DNA of 47,670 nucleotides from Streptosporangiales bacterium (GCA_009379955.1 WHST01000039.1:1-47670), one strand, 5' to 3'; counted from the first letter of the stretch, positions 15,689 to 24,729 are shown. Notes: a model not told the origin generated them from the letters alone. Made by a program: numbers and translations.

Positions 15689-15768
15689 TCACTCGGCCTC
15701 GTTTTCCCAGTTCAGCGGGTTCTTCTTGCTGGGCTGCACGCGGGGCGGCTCGCCGGGCATCTTCGGGG
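15689..15768 (-). pseudogene. Displaced native 3' end of the LigD-type polymerase gene
   Basis: The minus strand reads KMPGEPPRVQPSKKNPLN then WENEAE and a TGA. The intact polymerase gene at 23,521 ends with the corresponding KMPGEPMRVQPSRAKRV. This fragment is therefore the original C-terminal coding end, cut off when the element integrated. It has no start and is untranslated debris unless the element is excised. Confidence 0.85.
15747..15768. other. attL core (22-bp direct repeat)
   Basis: The repeat begins CGGCTCGCC and ends CATCTTCGGG and is identical to 23,578-23,599. On the minus strand it encodes PKMPGEP of the LigD-type polymerase, so the element targets a conserved coding motif. 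Homology continues weakly to the left because both sides encode the RVQPS motif. Confidence 0.85.
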
Positions 15769-15797
15769 TGTCGCACGCCTAATCGGCATGCTCACCT

Positions 15798-15812
15798 GCA
15801 TAAACGCTGGTC
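15798..15812 (+). other. Candidate integrase arm-type site, left P1
   Basis: GCATAAACGCTGGTC matches GCATTATCGCTGGTC at 23,531-23,545 at 13 of 15 positions. The left copy is 29 bp inside its core and the right copy is 32 bp inside its core, in the same orientation. In the circular form they would flank the core, as arm sites of tyrosine integrases do. Confidence 0.5.
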
Positions 15813-15835
15813 GGAGCTGAGCGGCTCCCGCCAGG

Positions 15836-15849
15836 TTATCCGGCGAGGT
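15836..15849 (+). other. Candidate integrase arm-type site, left P2
   Basis: TTATCCGGCGAGGT matches TTATCTGGCGAGAT at 23,481-23,494 at 12 of 14 positions in the same orientation. This is a second repeat pair flanking the core, which strengthens the arm-site reading. Confidence 0.5.
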
Positions 15850-15933
15850 GAAGCGCCCAATCCGTAAGCGGTCCCGAGTAGGTGCGTTACCACCCGCCCG
15901 GGACCTCGGCACCGACCGACAGGGGTCAGCACC

Positions 15934-16197
15934 GTGAACAGCAACCTACCGAACTACAGCCTGGAGAAGTCCGGGGACTACGACAGCACCGGCTCCTACC
16001 GCGTCAACATCCTCACCGACGTCGACGGGCTCGTCGAGCGCCAGCTGGCCGGCTACGTCCGGCCCATCCTCCGTGGCTTCGGCCGCGCCCGGCAGTGGCA
16101 GGCGATTGTCGACGGCGTCCCCATCGGCCAGCGGATGCGCACCCGGCAGCTCGCCGCCGCTGTCCTCATCGAACAGTGGAAGAGAGACCACTCGTGA
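15934..16197 (+). CDS. Element orf1, small protein of unknown function
   Basis: The 87-aa protein starts at a GTG with AGGGGT 8 nt upstream. It begins MNSNLPNYSLEKSGDYDS, is acidic in its first half and has a basic, helical C-terminal half (GQRMRTRQLAAAVLIEQWK). I do not recognise the family. Its stop overlaps the next GTG, so it forms a two-gene unit with orf2 that reads from the attL side and ends at a terminator. Position and orientation would suit an excision or regulatory role, but no excisionase motif is clear. Confidence 0.65.
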   Translation: MNSNLPNYSLEKSGDYDSTGSYRVNILTDVDGLVERQLAGYVRPILRGFGRARQWQAIVDGVPIGQRMRTRQLAAAVLIEQWKRDHS

Positions 16198-16418
16198 CCG
16201 ACACGTACCGGTTCAGCGCGCCTGACGACTACGACGCGTACCTGGAGCGCTTGGAACGCGGGTTCGACGCCTACTACAACCATGGCGGCGACCGTGATGT
16301 CGACCCCCTGGTGGTCAAGCTTGCGGTGCACATCGTCGCCGCGTACCAACCCCAGACGCGTGAGCAGGCCGACCTGATCGTCAAGACGCTGGCCACGCTC
16401 AGCTCGGGGAGGCTCTGA
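16194..16418 (+). CDS. Element orf2, small acidic protein of unknown function
   Basis: The 74-aa protein starts at a GTG overlapping the orf1 stop (GTGA). It contains DDYDAYLERLERGFDAYYNH followed by a predicted amphipathic helical region. It has no recognised domain. Translational coupling with orf1 and the terminator right after it indicate a real gene pair. Confidence 0.6.
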   Translation: MTDTYRFSAPDDYDAYLERLERGFDAYYNHGGDRDVDPLVVKLAVHIVAAYQPQTREQADLIVKTLATLSSGRL

Positions 16419-16442
16419 CTCCTAGACGCAGACCTTCTAGTC

Positions 16443-16472
16443 GAGCCCCCGGCCCACGGTGGTCGGGGGCTC
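16443..16472 (+). terminator. Terminator hairpin after orf1-orf2
   Basis: GAGCCCCCG pairs with CGGGGGCTC over a 12-nt loop, followed by GTTCT. It separates the plus-strand orf1-orf2 unit from the convergent minus-strand ParB-like remnant and may serve both. Confidence 0.75.
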
Positions 16473-16475
16473 GTT

Positions 16476-16965
16476 CTATGCCGGTGTGCCGCACGTCCGA
16501 CAGTCCGCCTTCTTCTGCTGCCCGTCCTTGTCAGGTGGCGCCACCTTCACGGGATCGGCGCCAGCCTTGACCTCCTTGACGTACGCGACCTGGTCTTCGC
16601 GCGATTCCTCAGCGACGCGGGTCGCCGTCGTGAGAGGTACGCGGCCGTCGGTGACGAGCTTCTGCAGCTCCTCCGTGCCGTCCTTCATCACCTTGCGAGC
16701 GCGATCAACGGTGCGAGGCTTGACGCTCAACAGCTCGGCGGCCTCATCGGTGGAGGAGGTAGAAACTCCGCCATATGGCGGAGTTTTCGGCCTTCCCTCC
16801 CCCGCGCTGCGCGAGCTTGGCCGCGATCATCGCCCGCTGCGCGTCCGTCAGGTGACGGCGGTGAACGTTGTGGCTGACGATGAACTTCACCGCGTCGCCC
16901 TCATACACCCGCGTCGTGATCAGCTCACCCGCCACGCGGCAAGCGCGAACTACCCAAGGATCCCG
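16476..16965 (-). pseudogene. ParB-like DNA-binding protein, N-terminally truncated and frameshifted
   Basis: One frame reads RACRVAGELITTRVYEGD then NVHRRHLTDAQRAMIAAKLA, a ParB-like central region, and runs into a stop at NSAIWRSFYLLHR. The frame one base over continues TDEAAELLSVKPRTVDRARK, the expected HTH of the same family, to a C-terminal CRTC. A single-base change near 16,745-16,755 breaks the gene. The N-terminal nuclease-like domain is missing and a TAG lies upstream. It is a remnant, or the frameshift is a sequence error and the 5' part is still lost. Confidence 0.75.
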
Positions 16966-16973
16966 CTAATCAC

Positions 16974-17040
16974 CCAAACTGCACTGTGGGCGCGGCGCTC
17001 GTGAAAGGGTAAACCGAGCGCCGCGCCCACAATGGTTTGG
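16974..17040. repeat. 67-bp inverted repeat with perfect 17-bp inner stem
   Basis: TGTGGGCGCGGCGCTCG (16,985-17,001) pairs perfectly with its complement at 17,015-17,031 around a 13-nt A/G-rich loop. An outer stem CCAAAC/GTTTGG extends it. It lies between the broken ParB-like gene and the capsid unit on the same strand. It could be the capsid-operon terminator, or a binding or packaging site. Confidence 0.75.
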
Positions 17041-17159
17041 CCGGTTGGGCGGGTAGCCAGCGCCTCCGGCCTCGTGTCATGCCGTGACACGTTTCCCCCG
17101 GCGCCGCAGGCTGGCATCGAGCGTCCGTTTAGACGGCCCGCGAGACGCCGGGGAAGACT
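17041..17159. other. Spacer, no gene recognised
   Basis: The sequence after the 57-aa ORF and before the large inverted repeat holds no open frame I would support. It includes a small TGTCATGCCGTGACA near-palindrome and a CCGTTTAGACGG hairpin. Confidence 0.35.
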
Positions 17160-17333
17160 TCAGGCGACAGCACCCACCATCGCAGGCGGCGGGTCGTCGC
17201 CCTCGCGCCAGAGCCGGGCCATCCGGTCCGCGCTCACGGCGCCACCACGTCGGCGAGACTCGGCGAGCACGTCGTCAAGCTCGGTATCGTCGGCGAGTTC
17301 CCGCCAGATCCGGGACATCCGGTCCTCGCTCAC
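17160..17333 (-). CDS. 57-aa protein with a tandem SxDRMxR(I/L)WRE motif, coupled to the capsid gene
   Basis: The GTG start overlaps the capsid stop as GTGA. The protein reads MSEDRMSRIWRELADD, then a linker, then VSADRMARLWREGDD, so a 14-residue motif occurs twice. The DNA is duplicated too, each copy starting GTGAGCG(A/C)GGACCGGATG. Coupling to the capsid gene suggests a role in head assembly or simply co-expression, but no family is recognised. Confidence 0.6.
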   Translation of the reverse strand: MSEDRMSRIWRELADDTELDDVLAESRRRGGAVSADRMARLWREGDDPPPAMVGAVA

Positions 17334-18445
17334 GGGGTCACCACGTCGACCGTCGACGCGAACCCGCCGGTGAGTCCAACGCCGTACCCGCCGATCACCG
17401 ACGACGCGACCGTCACGGTACCGGTCTTCACCGAGACCTCAGTCTCAGTCAGGAACCCCTGCGCGTCGAAGAACCGGGCACCGGCCCGCAAATTCGCCAC
17501 CGTCACGAACCCGGTGTTGACCGCGCTGGACGGATAGATCAGCGCGCCACTGAACCGCTGGAACGACTCGGCGATCGTGGCACCGCCGATCGGGGACACG
17601 TCCTGCAGCAGCGCGGCGTTGTCCGGATGGACCAGCACCACGAGGTCGGTCGAGTCAGTGGCGGCGGTGGCGTCGATCACCCGGGCCATCGCCGAGCGGA
17701 CCGCAGCCGGCACATCGGCGCTGAACGCGACCGCGGCACCCGCCGCGGCCTCGACCGCATTGACCAGCACCAGGTCCAGGTCCTTCGCGACCCCGATTGC
17801 GTGCATCCCGACGATCGCGCCGGCGTCGGTGCCGATACGCGATTCACGGCTCATGTCCGTCCAGCGGCCGAAGCGGGCGAGGGTGACGCTTCCGGCGGTG
17901 GACGCGGCGAACTCGGCCAGGCTCACGTTCTCCCCGACCGAGGCCTGAGCCGTGGGCAGCGTCAGGTTCGGGTGCTGCGCTAGCGCGGCGTCCGCCTCCT
18001 GTCGCGGCACACCGGCCACCACGTGAAGCATCCGGGGCCCGGACAGCACGTTGGAGCCCCACACCCGCGGAGCGCCGTAGGTGGTCGTCACGAGCGCCGC
18101 GCGCTGTTCTACATCGGCAGCCTCGAACCGACCCGCGGAACGGGTGTCCAGTGCAGCCTGCAGGTTGTCCAGCGCCTCCGGCCTGAACGCCAGCGGATGC
18201 GCAGAGGCGCGGTGGGACCCGCCCAGCGCCTCGAACCGCGCATCCGAATGCGCCAGGCGCGCCTGCAACGCCTCCTGCTCGGCGATCCGCTCGTCGAACT
18301 GGTCGATCTGGGAGTTCAGGCCCTCGAATGCACGCTGCTCGCTGTCGCTGAACGCACGGTTCTCATCGGCCGCGGCCTGCGCCAAGGCGCGTGCCTGCTC
18401 GTAAACTCGCGCACGATTAGCGCGCACCTTCTCAAGGCTTGACAT
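17330..18445 (-). CDS. HK97-fold phage major capsid protein
   Basis: The 371-aa protein has an N-terminal coiled-coil delta or scaffold region (about residues 1-75, with RAFSDSEQRAFEGLNSQID), a linker, and an HK97-type body ending with the FDAQGFLTETEVSVKTG region and a final glycine-rich strand. GFVTVANLRAGARFF resembles the P-domain end of actinophage capsids. Length is normal for the family. In HK97-type phages the delta domain is removed by a protease, and no protease gene is visible here. The ATG has GGAG 7 nt upstream, buried in a hairpin. Confidence 0.88.
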   Translation of the reverse strand: MSSLEKVRANRARVYEQARALAQAAADENRAFSDSEQRAFEGLNSQIDQFDERIAEQEALQARLAHSDARFEALGGSHRASAHPLAFRPEALDNLQAALDTRSAGRFEAADVEQRAALVTTTYGAPRVWGSNVLSGPRMLHVVAGVPRQEADAALAQHPNLTLPTAQASVGENVSLAEFAASTAGSVTLARFGRWTDMSRESRIGTDAGAIVGMHAIGVAKDLDLVLVNAVEAAAGAAVAFSADVPAAVRSAMARVIDATAATDSTDLVVLVHPDNAALLQDVSPIGGATIAESFQRFSGALIYPSSAVNTGFVTVANLRAGARFFDAQGFLTETEVSVKTGTVTVASSVIGGYGVGLTGGFASTVDVVTP

Positions 18446-18452
18446 AGCTTCA

Positions 18453-18486
18453 CTCCGTAAGTGTCAAAAGGGATTCACTTACGGAG
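18453..18486 (-). promoter_or_regulatory. Hairpin hiding the capsid ribosome binding site
   Basis: In the mRNA CTCCGTAAGTG pairs perfectly with CACTTACGGAG across a 12-nt loop. The GGAG Shine-Dalgarno of the capsid gene is the last part of the 3' arm, 7 nt before the ATG. Translation should be low unless the stem is opened or the upstream arm is missing from the transcript. Confidence 0.65.
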
Positions 18487-18789
18487 TAGAAACCGTTCAC
18501 CCCGGGCACTAAAGCCCCGGCGAGGCCAACCTAGGTTCGAGGTCAGCGGCTCGGTTTGTCCACCACATCCGTGTCGCGTTCGCGGGTGGGTTGCGCCCTG
18601 CCCGCTTACGCCGCACTGTCGGTGCGCTACCCATTCTACCACTCGACTTCTGCCGACCAGTTCCCCGAGTTGGTCGCGTACCTGAGGCTTGGACGGTTCA
18701 GTAAAGTTTTCTGAACCGTCCCGGTGTTCACGCTTGGCAACGCTTGCCAGCCCGGATTCCCGCTGCCGCTCCTTGGCTTCCTTCTGCAT
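18475..18789 (-). CDS. Uncertain ORF with HTH-like fragment upstream of the capsid gene
   Basis: The frame opens MQKEAKERQRESGLASVAKR and contains ENFTEPSKPQVRDQLGELVG, which recalls the DNA-binding helix region of phage ParB-like proteins. The second half (about residue 50 onward) looks non-coding and runs through the capsid leader and into the ribosome-binding-site hairpin. I read it as a truncated gene fragment at a recombination joint. The leader also holds a possible -10 (TAGAAT, minus strand near 18,640) for the capsid gene. Confidence 0.3.
   Translation of the reverse strand: MQKEAKERQRESGLASVAKREHRDGSENFTEPSKPQVRDQLGELVGRSRVVEWVAHRQCGVSGQGATHPRTRHGCGGQTEPLTSNLGWPRRGFSARGERFLLRK
18680..18712. 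repeat. Repeat copy A with inverted repeat around TAAAGTTTT
   Basis: ACCTGAGGCTTGG followed a few bases later by TTCAGTAAAGTTTTCT recurs at 18,802-18,832. In this copy GACGGTTCAG (18,692-18,701) and CTGAACCGTC (18,711-18,720) form 10-bp inverted arms around the A/T-rich centre, like a repressor operator or terminator. Both copies also encode ENFTE..KPQVRD in one frame, so duplication of coding sequence is an alternative. Confidence 0.5.
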
Positions 18790-18801
18790 CAGCGATCACG
18801 A

Positions 18802-18832
18802 ACCTGAGGCTTGGTTTCAGTAAAGTTTTCTG
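18802..18832. repeat. Repeat copy B of the 18,680 repeat
   Basis: ACCTGAGGCTTGG then TTTCAGTAAAGTTTTCT matches copy A, but the outer inverted arms are mostly lost. It lies in the 46-nt gap between the preceding gene stop and the next ATG. Confidence 0.5.
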
Positions 18833-18835
18833 GAA

Positions 18836-19165
18836 CTATTCCCCCTCGTCGAGCCCCATCGGCCACTCGACACGGCCCGCGGCCGGCGTCACCGCGTCGT
18901 CGACCGCACGCGCCAACGCACGCCGCCGGTCACGCTCCTCAGCGAGCTTGAGAGCCGCGCTCATCAACGCATCACGCTCCCGCGCGATCTGCGCCAGCGC
19001 GCGGTCAAGCTCGCCGTCATCGAACTCCCACGCGCGGATGATCATGTCTGCCCCCCAGTTCCTCGGGGAACCGAACCCGAGTTGCGACGCCAGGCGGAAC
19101 ACCCAGGCCGGCACGACCCGCAGTCGGCCGACGACCACAGAGCCGCACAGACCATCCGCCAGCAC
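18836..19165 (-). CDS. Element protein of unknown function, partly frame-overlapping its upstream neighbour
   Basis: The clearly coding part from the ATG at 19,045 reads MIIRAWEFDDGELDRALA and continues as a charged helical protein. Coding bias in this frame extends upstream to about 19,165 (VVVGRLRVVPAWVFRLASQL), where a GTG could serve as start. The upstream gene overlaps this stretch in another frame with worse bias. Either the two are one frameshifted gene or this is a long overlap. No family is recognised. Confidence 0.5.
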   Translation of the reverse strand: MLADGLCGSVVVGRLRVVPAWVFRLASQLGFGSPRNWGADMIIRAWEFDDGELDRALAQIARERDALMSAALKLAEERDRRRALARAVDDAVTPAAGRVEWPMGLDEGE

Positions 19166-19365
19166 CGACGCGCCAGCAGCGCGTCCAACACGTCATCCCC
19201 CTGACGGCAAGCGCCCAGAGCACGCAGCACCGTACGCAGCCACTTCTGCGCGGCCGGATCGCCATCCTCGGCCAGCAGCAGCGCCAGACGCGCCAGATCA
19301 CGCGACCCCCGGCTACCGGGAATCACCGACCGCGCCACATAGCGACGCACCCGAGCCTCACGCAT
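19042..19365 (-). CDS. Element protein of unknown function, 107 aa
   Basis: The ATG overlaps the stop of the upstream gene by 8 nt, and the stop overlaps the next ATG (ATGA). The first 65 residues (MREARVRRYVARSVIPGSRG onward, ending DDVLDALLARR) look coding. The rest is Cys- and Trp-rich with poor codon bias, and the good bias moves to the frame of the next gene. A single-base frameshift near 19,165 is likely. Confidence 0.5.
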   Translation of the reverse strand: MREARVRRYVARSVIPGSRGSRDLARLALLLAEDGDPAAQKWLRTVLRALGACRQGDDVLDALLARRCWRMVCAALWSSADCGSCRPGCSAWRRNSGSVPRGTGGQT

Positions 19366-19621
19366 CGCGCTGTCGCAGAAGATCATCAAGCTCGGCATCC
19401 GACACACCACGACCACCCATGCCACCCTCACCAGTGAGATCCGCCAGCAGCAGCCGCATCTCCCGCACCGCCGGCCCCAACCCGTAACCCGGGATCGAAC
19501 CATCCGTCAGCCGCTCCGCCAGATGCGCGGCCAACGCCGCACACGCACGACGACCAGGATCCATCTCACCGAGCGACTCAACGAGCCTGTCCACTTCCGT
19601 CCGAAAATCACCAAGATCCAC
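19358..19621 (-). CDS. Small phage-type protein, weakly like a terminase small-subunit family
   Basis: The 87-aa protein starts at a GTG with AAGGGA upstream. It is acidic and helical, with PGRRACAALAAHLAERLTDG in the middle, VREMRLLLADLTGEG after it and DDLLRQRDA at the end. The layout recalls short terminase-small-subunit-like proteins of actinophages, which end in a similar acidic/basic tail, but I cannot see a decisive motif. Confidence 0.5.
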   Translation of the reverse strand: MDLGDFRTEVDRLVESLGEMDPGRRACAALAAHLAERLTDGSIPGYGLGPAVREMRLLLADLTGEGGMGGRGVSDAELDDLLRQRDA

Positions 19622-20027
19622 TTCGTTCCCTTTCAGCTCAAGATCACAACGGGTTTTCTTTTCCCACCCACGGTCAGAAACGCCCGACTGAGCGGTCAGC
19701 GTGAGGAGTCGGGATCAGAAAACACCCCCGGGGGGGTACCGGGTGTACTCATGGGGGGTACGGGTGTCCTGTGAGGCCCCGGCACCCCGTTCCTAGTACT
19801 CGGTACCGGGGTGGCCCTGTACGGGTCTCTACGGGCTCCCTGTGCCCTCCTAGGGCCATGTGTGGTCATGTGCGTGCGTGTCATGGCCCTACGCCCTCTG
19901 CGTTCCGAGTGCCTGCGTCGTTGTCGTGCCCGACGTCGTGCACGTGCGGTTGGCCAGCCCCTCGCACGCCTGGTGTGTGCGTCGCTGCCACCGTGGCCGA
20001 CCAGCCTGGCGATCAGGTCGTCGAGGG
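19622..20027. other. Repeat-rich, frame-broken stretch
   Basis: This region holds G/C-rich short repeats (several GTACC and GGGGG units at 19,720-19,830) and a poor minus-strand open frame from a GTG at 20,031 to a stop at 19,696. Only the first 20 or so residues of that frame (MTLDDLIARLVGHGGSDAH) have coding bias. A different frame is better after that. I read it as decayed coding sequence. Confidence 0.4.
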
Positions 20028-20204
20028 TCACTCGGTGTCGCCTCGTCGACCACGCCGGCCGCGTCGTCGGTGACGGCCAGGGCGACGACGCACCCAGATG
20101 CTGGGCACCCGCTGCTCTCGCTCAGCTCTGTCGAGTGCCGCCATGACCTCGGTGTCGGTCGGGTCCAGCGGCTCGTACTCCGGTGGGTTGTCAGTGATCG
20201 TCAT
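20028..20204 (-). pseudogene. Small element gene with probable frameshift
   Basis: The ATG has GAGGTGA 6 nt upstream and reads MTITDNPPEYEPLDPTDTEV with good codon bias up to SIWV. The frame then becomes an Arg-rich run, while the frame one base over reads VVALAVTDDAAGVVDEAT with strong bias. A single-base indel near 20,095 is likely. The function is unknown. The original product probably ran on through 20,031. Confidence 0.5.
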
Positions 20205-20470
20205 GTGTGTTCACCTCGTCGAATACGGCAGTGATGGCGTTGATGGATGCGTGGTCGTCTCGGGCTGCGAGGAGCCGGATAGCGGCTGCGGTCGCTGCCG
20301 CCCACCGCGCTACCCCGTGGGTCGGGGTCGTCGCTGTCGAGGTCGGCGGCGGTGAGGAGTTGCCCGGTGCGTTCCGGTCCTAGCCCGAAGAAACGGAGTC
20401 GCTTGACGAGCCGTCTGGTGACGCCATGTCGACGAGCTTCCCGGTGATCTTCCCGGCGCTGATCAGTCAT
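20201..20470 (-). pseudogene. Element gene with probable frameshift
   Basis: The first half (MTDQRREDHREARRHGVTRR and on to LLTAADLDSDD) has fair coding bias. The second half turns Arg/His/Pro-rich, while the frame one base over reads ARWAAATAAAIRLLAARDD then HASINAITAVFDEVNTHDDH and stops inside the next gene. The switch lies at a CCCC run near 20,320. The repaired protein would be about 95 aa, family unknown. Confidence 0.5.
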
Positions 20471-20691
20471 CGCTCACTGCCGCATCTCCGGTGTGGCCCG
20501 GTGTGGCCCGGTGTGGCCCGGCCGCACTTGGCGTGGGTGTGGCCCGTGGCCCCGCTATATAGGCCACGGCCACGGCCACACTTGCCGGACACACGCGCCG
20601 ACGTGATCACTGGGCCACACCTGGCGCGAAGATCCGAGCGCGGTTCGGCCCCTCCCCGGATCGCCTGAACAGTCTCCGTTTTCATGATCAA
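20467..20691 (-). CDS. Small Cys/His-rich protein with GHTGPH-type repeats
   Basis: The 74-aa ORF starts at a TTG 7 nt after GGAG and ends in an ATGA overlap. Its C-terminal half contains KCGRGRGLYSGATGHTHAKC and then GRATPGHTGPHR, a Cys/His pattern seen in small actinophage zinc-binding proteins. The DNA behind it has three exact tandem GTGTGGCCCG units (20,491-20,520). The function is unknown. Confidence 0.5.
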   Translation of the reverse strand: MIMKTETVQAIRGGAEPRSDLRARCGPVITSARVSGKCGRGRGLYSGATGHTHAKCGRATPGHTGPHRRCGSER

Positions 20692-20812
20692 CTCGCCACT
20701 CCTCTGTTGGTTCTTCTAAGCGATTCAGTTACGGCCTTAAATGGTTACTGCCGTGAGTCCCGTCCCGTCCCGTCCCGTCCTGGGGTAACCGGTAACCCGG
20801 TAACCGGTAACC
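20681..20812. other. Candidate replication origin: GGTAACC iterons beside an A/T-richer stretch
   Basis: Four copies of GGTAACC start at 20,784, 20,791, 20,799 and 20,806 (spacing 7, 8, 7). They lie inside the 3' end of the replication-initiator-like gene, where they encode LPVTGLPVTP. Next to them is a GTCCC tandem run (20,757-20,780) and an A/T-richer stretch (about 20,681-20,755). An origin within the initiator gene is the arrangement of lambda-type phages. Confidence 0.5.
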
Positions 20813-21206
20813 CGGCCTTGCTCGGGCACGTATCCCGCGGGCAGTGACGCGAGTGATTGCCCGCCTCGCACTGCCGTTTCCGGTACGCCGCCGTGTTCTT
20901 CCGCTTCCTCGGCAGCAAGCTTTCGTCACGTTCACCCGGCGGCGGCAGGTGCTCGTCGATGGTCAACACGGTGACGTCGTGGTCGCCGATATCGAGCACA
21001 CCGGCCGACCGCAACTCCTCGTGACACGCGCCAGGGTCACGGACGTCTGACACGCGGCACGCCACCTGTAGCGGCAGTGTCCCGTCGTACCGCTCGGTTG
21101 CGCTGCACGTCTCGACCAGGGCGAGATAGTGCCAGCGCGCGGCATGAGAGACGTTGTCCCATGCCTTGGCGGACGTGAACCGGTCGTCATAGCGCACCCA
21201 ACTCAT
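20745..21206 (-). CDS. Phage replication-initiator-like protein
   Basis: The 153-aa protein begins MSWVRYDDRFTSAKAWDNVS, the typical start of actinophage replisome-organiser or winged-helix replication proteins. HYLALVETCSATERYDGTLP and a compact Cys/His cluster (RQCEAGNHSRHCPRDTCP) follow. The C-terminus is the iteron-encoded Pro/Val/Thr-Gly repeat. The ATG at 21,206 has GGGAGG 8 nt upstream. It overlaps the upstream stop by 4 nt. It is the best candidate for initiating replication of the excised element. Confidence 0.65.
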   Translation of the reverse strand: MSWVRYDDRFTSAKAWDNVSHAARWHYLALVETCSATERYDGTLPLQVACRVSDVRDPGACHEELRSAGVLDIGDHDVTVLTIDEHLPPPGERDESLLPRKRKNTAAYRKRQCEAGNHSRHCPRDTCPSKAGLPVTGLPVTPGRDGTGRDSRQ

Positions 21207-21421
21207 CCGCGTGCCTCCCGTCGTAGCCAAGCGGCGGCACGCCGGCGAGCAGTCGCAGATGCGTACGGGGAGCTGGCGAGCCGGCGCGCGATCTCACGGC
21301 ACCGGTCGAGCCGTACGGCCAGCGTCCCCCGGTGACGTTGGGCTGCCGCCCGCTGGCGCGCACGTCGTCGCCCGTCGGTCGACACGGCAGGCCGTGAGGG
21401 CAGGTCGAACAAGGTCGTCAC
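21203..21421 (-). CDS. Element small basic protein, 72 aa
   Basis: The GTG overlaps the upstream stop as GTGA and the stop overlaps the next ATG. It reads MTTLFDLPSRPAVSTDGRRR, then an Arg/Ala-rich helix (ARQRAAAQRHRGTLAVRLDR). It is probably nucleic-acid-associated because of charge, but no family is recognised. Confidence 0.6.
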   Translation of the reverse strand: MTTLFDLPSRPAVSTDGRRRARQRAAAQRHRGTLAVRLDRCREIARRLASSPYASATARRRAAAWLRREARG

Positions 21422-21654
21422 GGCGTCACCTGCCGCACCTTGACCGGCACCGACCAGTACTCGCACGCAGCGACGAGGTCGGGGACCTTGACCGCCGGGA
21501 TCACCCATCCGCGCGCGTAAGGGCTCCACTTCGCCATGCGGTCGGTGAGGAGGAACTCCGTCTGCAAGATGCGCTTGACGCCCCTGCCGGTGACCAGGGC
21601 CAGACCACGGGACTCGTCGACAGTGATCCACACGAACGTGTCGGGCGCCGTCAT
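21418..21654 (-). CDS. Element protein of unknown function, 78 aa
   Basis: The ATG overlaps the upstream stop (ATGA). The sequence MTAPDTFVWITVDESRGLAL then LLTDRMAKWSPYARGWVIPA looks like a small globular alpha/beta protein with good codon bias. Similar short proteins occur in actinobacterial phages and integrative elements. The function is not known. Confidence 0.65.
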   Translation of the reverse strand: MTAPDTFVWITVDESRGLALVTGRGVKRILQTEFLLTDRMAKWSPYARGWVIPAVKVPDLVAACEYWSVPVKVRQVTP

Positions 21655-21848
21655 GCCGCTGCCATCCGTTGACGCAGACTGGTGATGTAGGGCCCGTGCG
21701 GTCCGTACCCGCCGATCGCGCTGTGGCCGTAGTCGACGACACCGACAAGGTCGACGAGACGACAGTCAGGGTCGTCGAGCCGCCACGGCGGCAACGGCAG
21801 GGGGCGCGACCAGCATCCGCAGGGGCATGGGCGCGGAGGGGGTACCAT
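21651..21848 (-). CDS. Element small protein with CPCGCW motif, 65 aa
   Basis: From the ATG at 21,848 it reads MVPPPRPCPCGCWSRPLPLP and later GYGPHGPYITSLRQRMAAA. It ends in ATGA overlap with the next gene. A GTG at 21,929 in the same frame overlaps the stop of the upstream gene and would add 27 residues, but that stretch spans a strong hairpin and looks non-coding. The function is unknown. Confidence 0.5.
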   Translation of the reverse strand: MVPPPRPCPCGCWSRPLPLPPWRLDDPDCRLVDLVGVVDYGHSAIGGYGPHGPYITSLRQRMAAA

Positions 21849-21885
21849 GGCCGTGACGTCGACGCCTTGCCGCTGATTCGTCGCG

Positions 21886-21915
21886 GAGCCGCCCGGTCCC
21901 CCGACAGGGCGGCTC
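21886..21915. terminator. Hairpin inside the operon, possible attenuator
   Basis: GAGCCGCCC pairs with GGGCGGCTC over a 12-nt loop. It lies between the first operon gene and the second. On the plus strand TTCTC follows. On the operon strand it may reduce read-through after the first gene. Confidence 0.5.
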
Positions 21916-21925
21916 TTCTCTGCGG

Positions 21926-22201
21926 TCACCCGTTACCGCCGCTGCGGTTACTGCGGGCACGCGATGCCGCGAACGACAATCGCTGCATGTGCGCGCGGTA
22001 CGCGCAGTCGACGCGTCGCTCAAGTTCGGCGTCGGACAGGCCGGGGGACTCGGCTTCGACCTGCCGGCGGAACTTGGCACGCAGACCGGCATGCGCGCGC
22101 TGCGCGTTGGCCTTGCCGTCCTCCTGCGACCACCGGGTGTTCGCAGCGATCCGAGCGCGCAGGACGCGCTGCTCAGGGGTGAGATTCTTGGATGCGGCCA
22201 T
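21926..22201 (-). CDS. Conserved small protein of actinobacterial mobile elements, first gene of the operon
   Basis: The 91-aa protein reads MAASKNLTPEQRVLRARIAA then GLRAKFRRQVEAESPGLSDA, AELERRVDCAYRAHMQRL and a basic tail. This K-N-L-T-P-E-x-R-x-x-R-A pattern with a C-terminal AH(M)xRLAxxSAR motif is common in small proteins of Streptomyces plasmids, integrative elements and phages. The function is unknown. The ATG has GGAG 7 nt upstream, inside a hairpin. It is the first gene of the minus-strand operon and divergent from the gene at 22,324. Confidence 0.7.
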   Translation of the reverse strand: MAASKNLTPEQRVLRARIAANTRWSQEDGKANAQRAHAGLRAKFRRQVEAESPGLSDAELERRVDCAYRAHMQRLSFAASRARSNRSGGNG

Positions 22202-22203
22202 GC

Positions 22204-22234
22204 GGGACTCCAGCCGCGTTGCGCGGCGAGTCCC
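22204..22234 (-). promoter_or_regulatory. Hairpin hiding the ribosome binding site of the first operon gene
   Basis: In the mRNA GGGACTC pairs with GAGTCCC, with an inner stem GCCGCG/CGCGGC and a 3-nt loop. The GGAG of the following ATG overlaps the 3' arm. This matches the design seen before the capsid gene, with different sequence. Confidence 0.6.
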
Positions 22235-22311
22235 GGGAGTCACACGAGAGCCGGGGTTCATGCCAGGCGCGCCGTGAATGACACGCGTGGTATTTGGCTG
22301 TGACACCAGGC

Positions 22312-22323
22312 TAGCATGTAGGG
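22312..22323 (+). promoter_or_regulatory. -10 box for a leaderless gene at 22,324
   Basis: TAGCAT at 22,312-22,317 lies 6 nt before the GTG. The divergent region up to 22,201 also must hold the promoter of the minus-strand operon. TGTCATTCACG and the TGTGACACC stretch are possible sites, but I cannot define them. Confidence 0.4.
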
Positions 22324-22575
22324 GTGACGGATGGTGAGGGGCTCACCCGGCAGACCCGCGAGCTAGGTCGGGACGCGCTCGTCCGCGTCTGCTGCCGAGG
22401 CTGCCGGCGCCGACTCGGGCAACTCCGCCGCGTCGTCAGCAGCGAACCTGATCACATCTACGACTGTGACCGCTGCGACCGGTCGTACCCCATCACCGGG
22501 CCGCGGATGTTCCACGCGTACGTGTCCGCGCTGGGGACCGGGAGCCGTGTCGTCGAACTGCCGCTGCGCAGTTAG
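22324..22575 (+). CDS. Small zinc-binding protein of the element, 83 aa
   Basis: The protein begins MTDGEGLTRQTRELGRDALV and carries CCRGC and YDCDRC pairs about 28 residues apart, a plausible zinc ribbon. The middle and C-terminal parts (PRMFHAYVSALGTGSRVVEL) have normal codon bias. Its TAG stop overlaps the convergent integrase TAA (the bases TTAG). It is the only plus-strand gene in the right half, so a regulatory or excision role is possible but unproven. Confidence 0.6.
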   Translation: MTDGEGLTRQTRELGRDALVRVCCRGCRRRLGQLRRVVSSEPDHIYDCDRCDRSYPITGPRMFHAYVSALGTGSRVVELPLRS

Positions 22576-23471
22576 AGCCGGTCTCCGAGGCGGAGCCGCC
22601 GCGCCGCTTCCCGCGCCCGCTGCTCGGCGGCGGATGAACCGTAGACCGCCAACATCGCGTCGGATGTCCAGCCCATCAACCGTTTGAGGTCCTGCTCGCC
22701 GCCCCCGGCGGCTAGCCACGAGTGCGCGGCGGTGTGCCGGAACCGGTGCGCATGAAGGTCGACGACGCCCGCCTGCGTACCCCGGATACGGATCCGCTCG
22801 TCTAGTCCGTCGACGGATAGCGGTCCGCGTTGCGACAGCCAGAGCCGGTCGGTCTCGCCCGCCTTGGGATGCTTGCGCCGCTCCCGCAAGTACCTGTCCA
22901 GGGCGCGGGACGTCTTCGCACCGAACGGCACGACCCGCACCTTGCGGCCCTTGCCGATCACCCGGACCACCTCGACGTCGAAGTCGACGTCGAGGAGAGT
23001 GAGTCGGGTGACCTCGGAGATCCGCACGCCGCAGTCGAACAGCACTCGCAGGATCGCGTGGTCACGGCGATCGGCGAACGCCGACCCTGCCGTTGCCTTC
23101 AGTAGAGCGCCGATCTCCTCGTCAGTGAGTATGGGAACAGGTTGGGGCGCGGCCTTCGGTTGCTCCATCCCTTCCATGGGGGAGCGGTCGACCAGGTTCT
23201 CTGCGACGAGCCAGCGGCAGAACCGGCGGAGACCTCGAAACCGGGTGGACAGGGTGTTGGTCGACTGCCCGGCGTCGGCGAGATCACCGAGCCAGTGCGC
23301 GATCGCCGAGCGGGTGAGTTCGTCGAGCGTCGGTTGCCTGCCACGGTCGGTGAGCCAGCGGGTGAAGAACCGCACCGACTGGCCGTACAGCTCGACCGTG
23401 CGGGGCGCCTTGTCCGCGGCGCGCAGGTGCCGCCGCCAGGAGGCGACCAGGTCGTCGAGCCGTTCTGCCAT
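22572..23471 (-). CDS. int: Tyrosine recombinase (integrase)
   Basis: The 299-aa protein has a SAM-like core-binding domain (residues about 5-90, WRRHLRAADKAPRTVELYGQ) and a catalytic domain. The first catalytic Arg is in GVRISEVTRL near residue 146, HxxR lies in DLHAHRFRHTAAHS near 240, the G-W pair near 267 and the Tyr nucleophile in AVYGSS near 276. All key residues are present. There is no long arm-binding AP2 extension, as in XerC-like integrases. TAAGCT lies 6 nt before the ATG. It sits beside attR and should integrate and help excise the element. Confidence 0.93.
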   Translation of the reverse strand: MAERLDDLVASWRRHLRAADKAPRTVELYGQSVRFFTRWLTDRGRQPTLDELTRSAIAHWLGDLADAGQSTNTLSTRFRGLRRFCRWLVAENLVDRSPMEGMEQPKAAPQPVPILTDEEIGALLKATAGSAFADRRDHAILRVLFDCGVRISEVTRLTLLDVDFDVEVVRVIGKGRKVRVVPFGAKTSRALDRYLRERRKHPKAGETDRLWLSQRGPLSVDGLDERIRIRGTQAGVVDLHAHRFRHTAAHSWLAAGGGEQDLKRLMGWTSDAMLAVYGSSAAEQRAREAARRLRLGDRL

Positions 23472-23483
23472 GAGGCTAGCTTA
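23472..23483 (-). promoter_or_regulatory. Integrase leaderless promoter overlapping an arm site
   Basis: On the minus strand TAAGCT (23,478-23,483) is followed by 6 nt and the ATG. The P2-type repeat at 23,481-23,494 overlaps the upstream edge of this box, so integrase bound there could repress its own gene. Confidence 0.45.
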
Positions 23484-23494
23484 TCTGGCGAGAT
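23481..23494 (+). other. Candidate integrase arm-type site, right P2
   Basis: TTATCTGGCGAGAT matches the left copy at 15,836-15,849 at 12 of 14 positions in the same orientation. It lies 83 bp inside the right core. The nearby CGGCAT/ATGCCG inverted repeat (23,497-23,518) may bind another protein. Confidence 0.5.
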
Positions 23495-23520
23495 TGCGGC
23501 ATACTAGGCGTCATGCCGAG

Positions 23521-24585
23521 TTACGCGGGTGCATTATCGCTGGTCACACGCTTGGCGCGGCTGGGTTGGACGCGCATCGGCTCGCCGGGCATCTTCGGGT
23601 AGTCCGGGGGATAGGGCAGGTTGCCGAGGCCCTCGTCGCGCTCGTCGCGGTCGGCCCACTCGAGCAGGGTGTCGAGCGAGTACGCCTCGTCGTCGATGCC
23701 CGCGTGGACGTGGCCGAGCTCGGCGAACCGCTTCGGCATCGACACCACGTCGAAGTCGTCGGGCGTCACGTCGCCGACCTCGTCCCACCGCAGCGGCGCC
23801 GACACGCGCGCCTCGGCCTTGGCGCGGACGGAGTAGGCGGAGGCGATCGTGCGGTCGCGGGCCATCTGGTTGTAGTCGATGAAGATCCGCTCGCCGCGCT
23901 CCTCCTTCCACCAGTTCAGCGTGACGTGGTCGGGCATGCGGCGGACGAGCTCGCGGCCGAGCGCGATCAGCGCGCGTCGCGACTCGACGAAGGTCCAGCG
24001 CGGCTCGATCGGCACGTACACGTGCAGGCCGCGGCCGCCCGAGGTCTTGGGCCACCCCGTCATGCCGAGCTCCTCGAGCAGGCCGCGCAGCTCGCCGGCG
24101 ACCCGCGCGGCGTCGGCGAAGTCGGTGCCCGGCTGGGGGTCGAGGTCGATGCGCAGCTGGTCGGGGTGGTCGACGTTCGGCCGGCGGACGGGCCACGGGT
24201 GGAACGTCAGCGTGCCGAGGTTGCCGGCCCAGGCGACCACCGCGAGCTCGGTCGGGCAGACCTCGTCCGCCTTGCGGCCGCTGGGGAACGCGATGCTGAC
24301 CGACTCGACGTAGTCGGGCGCGCCCTTGGGGATCCGCTTCTGGTAGAACGCGTCGCCGCGGTTGTCCTGGCGCGTCGAGAGCTTCGCGCCGGGGAAGACG
24401 CCCGACGGCCACCGCTCGAGCGTGGTGGGACGGTCGCGCAGGGAGGCGAGGATGCCGTCACCGACGGCGAGGAAGTAGCGGACGATGTCGCCCTTGGTGT
24501 GGCCCCGTTCGGGGAAGTAGACCTTGTCGGGATTGGACACCCGCACGGTACGGTCGCCGACCTGCAGCTCAAGTGCCTCGGACAT
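23521..24585 (-). CDS. LigD-type polymerase/primase (NHEJ AEP) with element-supplied C-terminus
   Basis: The 354-aa protein is the stand-alone polymerase domain of the LigD family, which fills gaps and adds ribonucleotides during end joining. It shows SNPDKVYFPE, TTLERWPSGVFPG, FYQKRIPKGAPDYV, LRIDLDPQPGTDF with the catalytic Asp pair, TSGGRGLHVYVPI, and VSAPLRWDEVGDV. The C-terminus after PKMPGEP (MRVQPSRAKRVTSDNAPA) is encoded inside the element. The native end is at 15,689-15,768. TACGGT lies 6 nt before the ATG. No Ku gene is in the window. Confidence 0.92.
   Translation of the reverse strand: MSEALELQVGDRTVRVSNPDKVYFPERGHTKGDIVRYFLAVGDGILASLRDRPTTLERWPSGVFPGAKLSTRQDNRGDAFYQKRIPKGAPDYVESVSIAFPSGRKADEVCPTELAVVAWAGNLGTLTFHPWPVRRPNVDHPDQLRIDLDPQPGTDFADAARVAGELRGLLEELGMTGWPKTSGGRGLHVYVPIEPRWTFVESRRALIALGRELVRRMPDHVTLNWWKEERGERIFIDYNQMARDRTIASAYSVRAKAEARVSAPLRWDEVGDVTPDDFDVVSMPKRFAELGHVHAGIDDEAYSLDTLLEWADRDERDEGLGNLPYPPDYPKMPGEPMRVQPSRAKRVTSDNAPA
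23531..23545 (+). other. Candidate integrase arm-type site, right P1
   Basis: GCATTATCGCTGGTC matches the left copy at 15,798-15,812 at 13 of 15 positions. It lies within the element-supplied 3' end of the polymerase gene, which encodes its last few residues here. Confidence 0.5.
23578..23599. other. attR core (22-bp direct repeat)
   Basis: This is identical to 15,747-15,768. It lies inside the polymerase coding sequence so that the reading frame passes through it without change, and the element provides the codons after it. Confidence 0.85.
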
Positions 24586-24729
24586 GCAGACACCGTAGCG
24601 GTGCCGGCGCGGCGGCGTCGCCGACTTGACCGCGGACGGGAGTGGGTCGGTCACCCCCGCGTGGCCGGTACGACGGGGTAGGGTGGCGCCTGCGGATTTC
24701 GCGTCCAGGGCGGGAAGGCAAGGGAGGTC

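Follow-up and report, generated by a model that had tools for sequence, protein, structure and literature searches.

Analysis of a 47,670-nucleotide stretch of a Streptosporangiales bacterium genome (GCA_009379955.1, WHST01000039.1:1-47670; hereafter the window) identified a 7.85 kb integrated element, lying between two attachment (att) repeats in this actinobacterial genome, that is probably a helper-dependent phage satellite in the 3' end of a ligD-type gene. We favor this reading of the sequence because of the insertion itself, the restored host gene in a virtual empty site, the set of genes carried, and the recurrence of the same plan elsewhere. The element encodes an intact tyrosine integrase and one HK97-type capsid protein; PHROG, Pfam and phmmer scans of its other open reading frames (ORFs) gave no match to a portal, a terminase, a protease or to tail and lysis genes. 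An earlier sequence-only reading had reported the same repeats, intact integrase and full-length capsid gene, the same lack of packaging, protease, tail and lysis genes, and a replication-initiator-like gene with iterons, all of which were recovered here with the qualifications given below. Its proposal of a minimal capsid-bearing satellite is still a prediction from sequence, now strengthened by same-plan elements elsewhere and by the lack of any full prophage at the ligD site in the relatives inspected.

The ends of the element are marked by an exact 22-bp direct repeat, CGGCTCGCCGGGCATCTTCGGG, with no mismatches between its copies (Table 1); the chance expectation for this sequence at three or fewer mismatches is 0.02 matches, and two were found. 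The att core sits inside the 3' coding end of the minus-strand ligD-type gene. When the flanks were joined by script, the virtual empty site read ...PPDYPKMPGEPPRVQPSKKNPLNWENEAE*, ...NLPYPPDYPKMPGEPPRVQPSKKNPLNWENEAE*, the normal C-terminus of a ligD-type gene, whereas in the integrated state the gene ends in ...PKMPGEPMRVQPSRAKRVTSDNAPA*; the element therefore swaps the last codons of its host gene, whose native ending is found beyond the opposite end of the insertion. In a congener (G001), the contig with the ligD-type gene terminates at the same core, which is compatible with insertion there but no proof of it. Contig L220 of this congener (G001:C45) begins five bases before the core, with CGCAT as at the element-side junction of the window. 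A full prophage at the att site, which would have spoken against a satellite, was not seen in the relatives inspected, where the one other occupant found at the ligD-type site (G146, contig L047, 1611-12761) has a tape-measure-like gene besides its integrase and primase-like genes. The far end of that occupant was not found, and short runs of N lie nearby.

The 371-amino-acid (aa) product reads as an HK97-type capsid protein in which the delta domain is clear and the shell is called with moderate certainty. Residues 1-68 match phrog_10 (4.5e-7), residues 10-120 match TIGR01554 (1.4e-4), and residues 174-346 match PF25209 (Phage_capsid_4) with 26.3 bits in the protein scan, where the cut-off is 27, and 30.8 bits in the genome scan. 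The delta domain also aligns, at 95% probability, with a profile of capsids from prophages and from capsid-forming (cf-type) satellites. An encapsulin-like compartment was set aside on account of this domain. A separate scaffold gene was not found in the window element, and it is the N-terminal delta domain of the capsid that aligns to prophage capsids. The capsid gene is set apart from the small genes behind a 12-bp inverted repeat, and the predicted hairpin, which holds the capsid Shine-Dalgarno sequence, could make capsid synthesis conditional; a 20-bp inverted repeat on the other side is the probable end of the capsid operon.

The same plan was found in other genera and at other sites, which was one of the checks that the sequence-only reading had called for. 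Searching the order with the integrase as query and reading the neighborhoods turned up two compact elements in which a scaffold gene accompanies the capsid gene, one in G232 and one in Actinomadura geliboluensis (G243). Their integrases are related to that of the window element, and their insertion sites, too, are 3' ends of protein genes. The G243 capsid, used as the next query, gave further finds in Actinomadura, Nocardiopsis, Brevibacterium, Actinomyces, Mycobacterium, Nesterenkonia and an Acidimicrobiia metagenome-assembled genome (MAG). At least nine sisters have both ends mapped by direct repeats, with lengths of 8.37-9.71 kb: G232 (8.67 kb), A. geliboluensis (8.89 kb), Brevibacterium antiquum (9.05 kb), Actinomyces urogenitalis (8.44 kb), the Acidimicrobiia MAG (8.65 kb), Nesterenkonia (8.37 kb), G026 (9.61 kb), G314 (9.71 kb) and G248 (9.19 kb, with 16-bp repeats). 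Because the searches favored small capsid elements, this set is uninformative on frequency.

Each sister has an integrase, a replication gene and one capsid gene, usually with a scaffold gene, and the families matched by PHROG and Pfam scans of selected sister proteins, in combinations that differ among elements, were integrase, primase/helicase or initiator, scaffold and capsid; the A. geliboluensis element has a small-terminase-like gene too. The ten spans, including the window element, were screened by phmmer, with prophage portals, large terminases, tape measures and one protease encountered in this analysis as queries, a screen bound to its query set that very divergent genes could escape. 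It gave no portal, large terminase, protease or tape measure except a large terminase in Brevibacterium, confirmed by PHROGs in two ORFs, and eight of the nine sisters had no portal, large-terminase or tail match. Closest in content to the window element is the G248 element, where homologues of the small genes g70, g87 and g110 surround a delta-bearing capsid gene, and which further encodes an integrase along with primase-like and P-loop proteins; through these three homologues the link between the window element and the class extends beyond the integrase. Capsids 69-76% identical occur in elements with different integrases, a pattern that suggests the capsid is retained across elements. Together, at least nine similar small capsid elements suggest a real class of phage parasites and not the wreck of a virus.

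The main rival is that wreck: a prophage or satellite, once larger, that has decayed by deletion of its packaging, tail and replication genes and kept the capsid gene as a leftover. We consider it unlikely, as damage is seen in neither att copy, nor in the integrase or the capsid ORF, the same plan recurs at 8-10 kb at unrelated sites in other actinobacteria, where repeated decay to one gene set would be unexpected, and the capsid-side genes are seen again in the G248 element. Several observations nonetheless favor decay or otherwise count against a satellite. A ParB-like gene is broken near the capsid end, so the element is not wholly intact; no primase or helicase was found in it, whereas most sisters have one (the Actinomyces element likewise has an initiator-type match only); and no repressor or excisionase was recognized. 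Close relatives of the capsid were not found in the sampled genomes, IMG/VR, phages or plasmids. Beyond the delta domain the shell did not align to two capsid profiles built here, its identity depends on one borderline Pfam family, PF25209, and AlphaFold, run once with a 15-row alignment and once on the shell alone, gave no usable capsid model. Finally, searches of the same assembly for portal (PF04860) and PF05065 capsid families found neither, and a helper would therefore come from outside or belong to other families.

Capsid searches of order and class genomes matched ordinary prophages (G272, G294 and G420) at the delta domain, while matches in G495 and G526 were rejected as non-capsid regions; a shell-only search of the order gave matches all at E 0.001 or weaker, and a sequence search of the PDB gave none. 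In a capsid tree, lone and cf-type capsids grouped apart from prophage capsids, but with support of only 0.53 and sampling biased by the query we did not rely on it.

As a helper-dependent satellite, the element would be excised by its integrase while a helper phage is active and replicated by the initiator-like protein from the iteron-like repeats. Capsid protein from the separately controlled unit would form small heads, either by itself or together with helper capsid, and the portal, protease, terminase, tail and lysis functions of the helper would finish, fill and release the particle. The satellite probably makes or remodels small heads. Within this same reading, and not exclusive of it, it is possible, if on balance doubtful, that the capsid protein mixes into the helper shell and alters its size or poisons it, much as the SaPIbov5 protein Ccm occupies pentamers and redirects the helper shell to triangulation number (T) 4 (PMC8569155). 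A capsid gene with neither portal nor protease suits such a role; on the other hand, most sisters have a scaffold-like gene beside the capsid and the window capsid retains its delta domain, features that suit a self-sufficient shell, and none of the phage capsids in the collections searched is close to that of the window element.

A bolder proposal, which we regard as quite unlikely, is that the class packages one 8-10 kb genome per particle in small HK97 heads of its own, with T of about 2.3 to 3, which helper parts would fill and provide with tails. Modeling gives genome capacities of 8.1 kb at T 2.33, 8.9 kb at T 2.49 and 11.8 kb (8.1-17.1) at T 3, and such small architectures have been treated as missing or rare among tailed phages (PMC7762592). 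The ten elements span a narrow 7.85-9.71 kb, which fits small heads; concatemers in full-size heads fit too. Should the elements build heads themselves, those heads would be cases in nature of the small HK97 shells that have been predicted and not seen, and the elements would open the question of the fewest head parts a satellite must bring.

A third alternative, a non-phage integrative element resembling actinomycete integrative and conjugative elements or integrative and mobilizable elements, with the capsid reused as a compartment or defense signal, appears very improbable. Many elements of the order with related integrases had no capsid match in a phmmer screen, which speaks for such an origin, but no transfer gene was recognized in the window element, and both the delta domain and the pairing of scaffold with capsid genes in the sisters are features of head assembly.

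Satellites with a lone capsid gene have already been published, in Gram-negative phage-inducible chromosomal islands (PICIs), in SaPIbov5 and, as candidates, in Mycobacterium, and we regard the window element as a new variant within this known kind. The premise of the sequence-only reading, that a satellite capsid comes only with protease, portal or terminase, was accordingly incomplete (PMC10111431, PMC8569155, PMC10654092). Among Gram-negative PICIs, 21 of 29 reference elements have a lone major capsid gene and no full head module; these islands are 10-20 kb long with an AlpA-type regulator and a primase, and their capsid gene is reported to be dispensable for helper-assisted transfer (PMC6092414, PMC10111431). 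The window element shares the lone capsid, but AlpA and primase were not found in it. In SaPIbov5, Ccm is a satellite-encoded homologue of the helper capsid, which it redirects (PMC8569155); the window element likewise has a satellite capsid gene, though no homology to a helper capsid is known for it. Candidate PICIs in Mycobacterium carry an integrase and a capsid, those with tyrosine integrases sitting in tRNA genes and those with serine integrases elsewhere, and some have helicase, terminase or scaffold genes (PMC10654092). The window element differs from these in genus and order, in its insertion at the 3' end of a protein gene and in having no recognized helicase, and its capsid is far from the other capsids found here.

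Larger head modules are known as well. Capsid-forming PICIs (cf-PICIs) are described as bringing a capsid, a protease, a portal, connectors and the two terminase subunits and as needing helper tails, whereas the window element shares with them the capsid alone (PMC10690885). The Streptomyces satellites MulchRoom and MiniFlayer are also actinobacterial and encode a capsid, but together with scaffold, terminase and portal, and without replication genes (PMC10690885). The window element integrates site-specifically by its own integrase, as PICIs do, but no repressor or match to an Stl- or AlpA-type master regulator was obtained among the proteins scanned, where a divergent one could escape, and of the cf-PICI set of capsid, protease, portal, connector and terminase only the capsid was found. 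On these two tests we therefore filed it as neither; nor were the packaging, tail and lysis genes of a complete prophage found. What it does have, an integrase with att repeats and one HK97 capsid gene (shell borderline) with no portal, terminase, protease or tail gene found, corresponds to a lone-capsid actinobacterial satellite, which we define by integrase and capsid, no portal, terL or tail, a length of about 8-10 kb and defined att ends. A search of open-licence PubMed Central papers gave no earlier description of this class, which may exist elsewhere. These would be very small satellites, below the size of the Gram-negative PICIs, with particle genes that consist of a capsid and usually a scaffold.

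Table 1. Features of the element and its flanks in the window (positions counted from the first letter of the window).
Feature	Position	Strand	Basis
ligD-type host gene, native 3' end, displaced (...KMPGEPPRVQPSKKNPLNWENEAE*)	15689..15772	-	sequence reading
att core copy 1 (22 bp)	15746..15767		exact repeat
87-aa ORF, no function assigned	15934..16197	+	ORF
74-aa ORF, no function assigned, overlaps 87-aa ORF	16194..16418	+	ORF, family scans
ParB-like remnant, broken, frame-shifted	16476..16965	-	phrog_21315 1e-6; phrog_1033 0.02; frame reading
20-bp inverted repeat	16982..17034		repeat search
57-aa ORF, no function assigned, overlaps capsid gene end	17160..17333	-	ORF, family scans
HK97-type capsid protein (shell call moderate), 371 aa, N-terminal delta domain	17330..18445	-	phrog_10, TIGR01554, PF25209
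12-bp inverted repeat, hairpin with capsid Shine-Dalgarno inside	18452..18487	-	-28.8 kcal/mol, z -3.9
g70	18836..19045	-	homologue upstream of capsid in G248 element and in ordinary prophage G294
g110	19042..19365	-	homologue in G248 element, phmmer 4e-5
g87	19358..19621	-	homologue beside G248 element capsid, phmmer 4e-13
111-aa ORF, no function assigned	19696..20031	-	ORF, family scans
58-aa ORF, no function assigned	20028..20204	-	ORF, family scans
89-aa ORF, no function assigned	20201..20470	-	ORF, family scans
Iteron-like repeats TGTGGCC, 4 direct and 2 inverted copies	20492..20619		script count
Replication-initiator-like protein, 153 aa	20745..21206	-	weak relatives in G166 and G095
78-aa protein, no function assigned, overlaps 92-aa gene	21418..21654	-	ORF
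92-aa protein, no function assigned, overlaps 91-aa gene	21651..21929	-	ORF
91-aa protein	21926..22201	-	phmmer matches in many integrase loci
83-aa protein with CxxC-type pairs	22324..22575	+ (opposite strand)	ORF, high GC3; family matches weak
Tyrosine integrase, 299 aa, intact	22572..23471	-	PF00589 7e-27; phrog_1 3e-46
ligD-type host gene 3' part (attB target) with element-supplied substitute 3' end; start not fixed	23521..24640	-	ORF
att core copy 2 (22 bp)	23578..23599		exact repeat

The integrase gene is followed by small minus-strand genes, several of which overlap (Table 1). The 91-aa protein among them is conserved beside this type of integrase in other elements (phmmer), and the 83-aa protein with CxxC-type pairs, encoded on the opposite strand, is a possible control or excision protein. 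No primase was matched among the window-element proteins scanned. The product of one small gene weakly resembles initiator-like proteins, and after this gene in the reading direction come the iteron-like repeats, a possible origin. The ParB-like remnant holds a 24-bp palindrome, AAACTCCGCCATATGGCGGAGTTT.

Other arrangements were encountered among the relatives. The G146 occupant of the ligD-type site and an element in G291 (contig L057, 9731-13306) have related integrases and a tape-measure-like gene; a capsid was not found in either by phmmer. In Nocardiopsis sp. FIRDI 009 (G118, contig L134, 5472-12936), a serine-recombinase element with scaffold and capsid genes lies between the halves of a prophage large-terminase gene, and a like arrangement is seen in Nocardiopsis lucentensis (L133), where the contig has only the N-terminal half of the large-terminase gene; both resemble the helper-embedded PICIs described previously (PMC10111431). 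Three IMG/VR contigs (L153, L157 and L158), read from their ORFs, look like cf-PICIs: they have terminase, capsid, portal and protease-like genes, tail genes were not seen in them, and L157 has an integrase as well.

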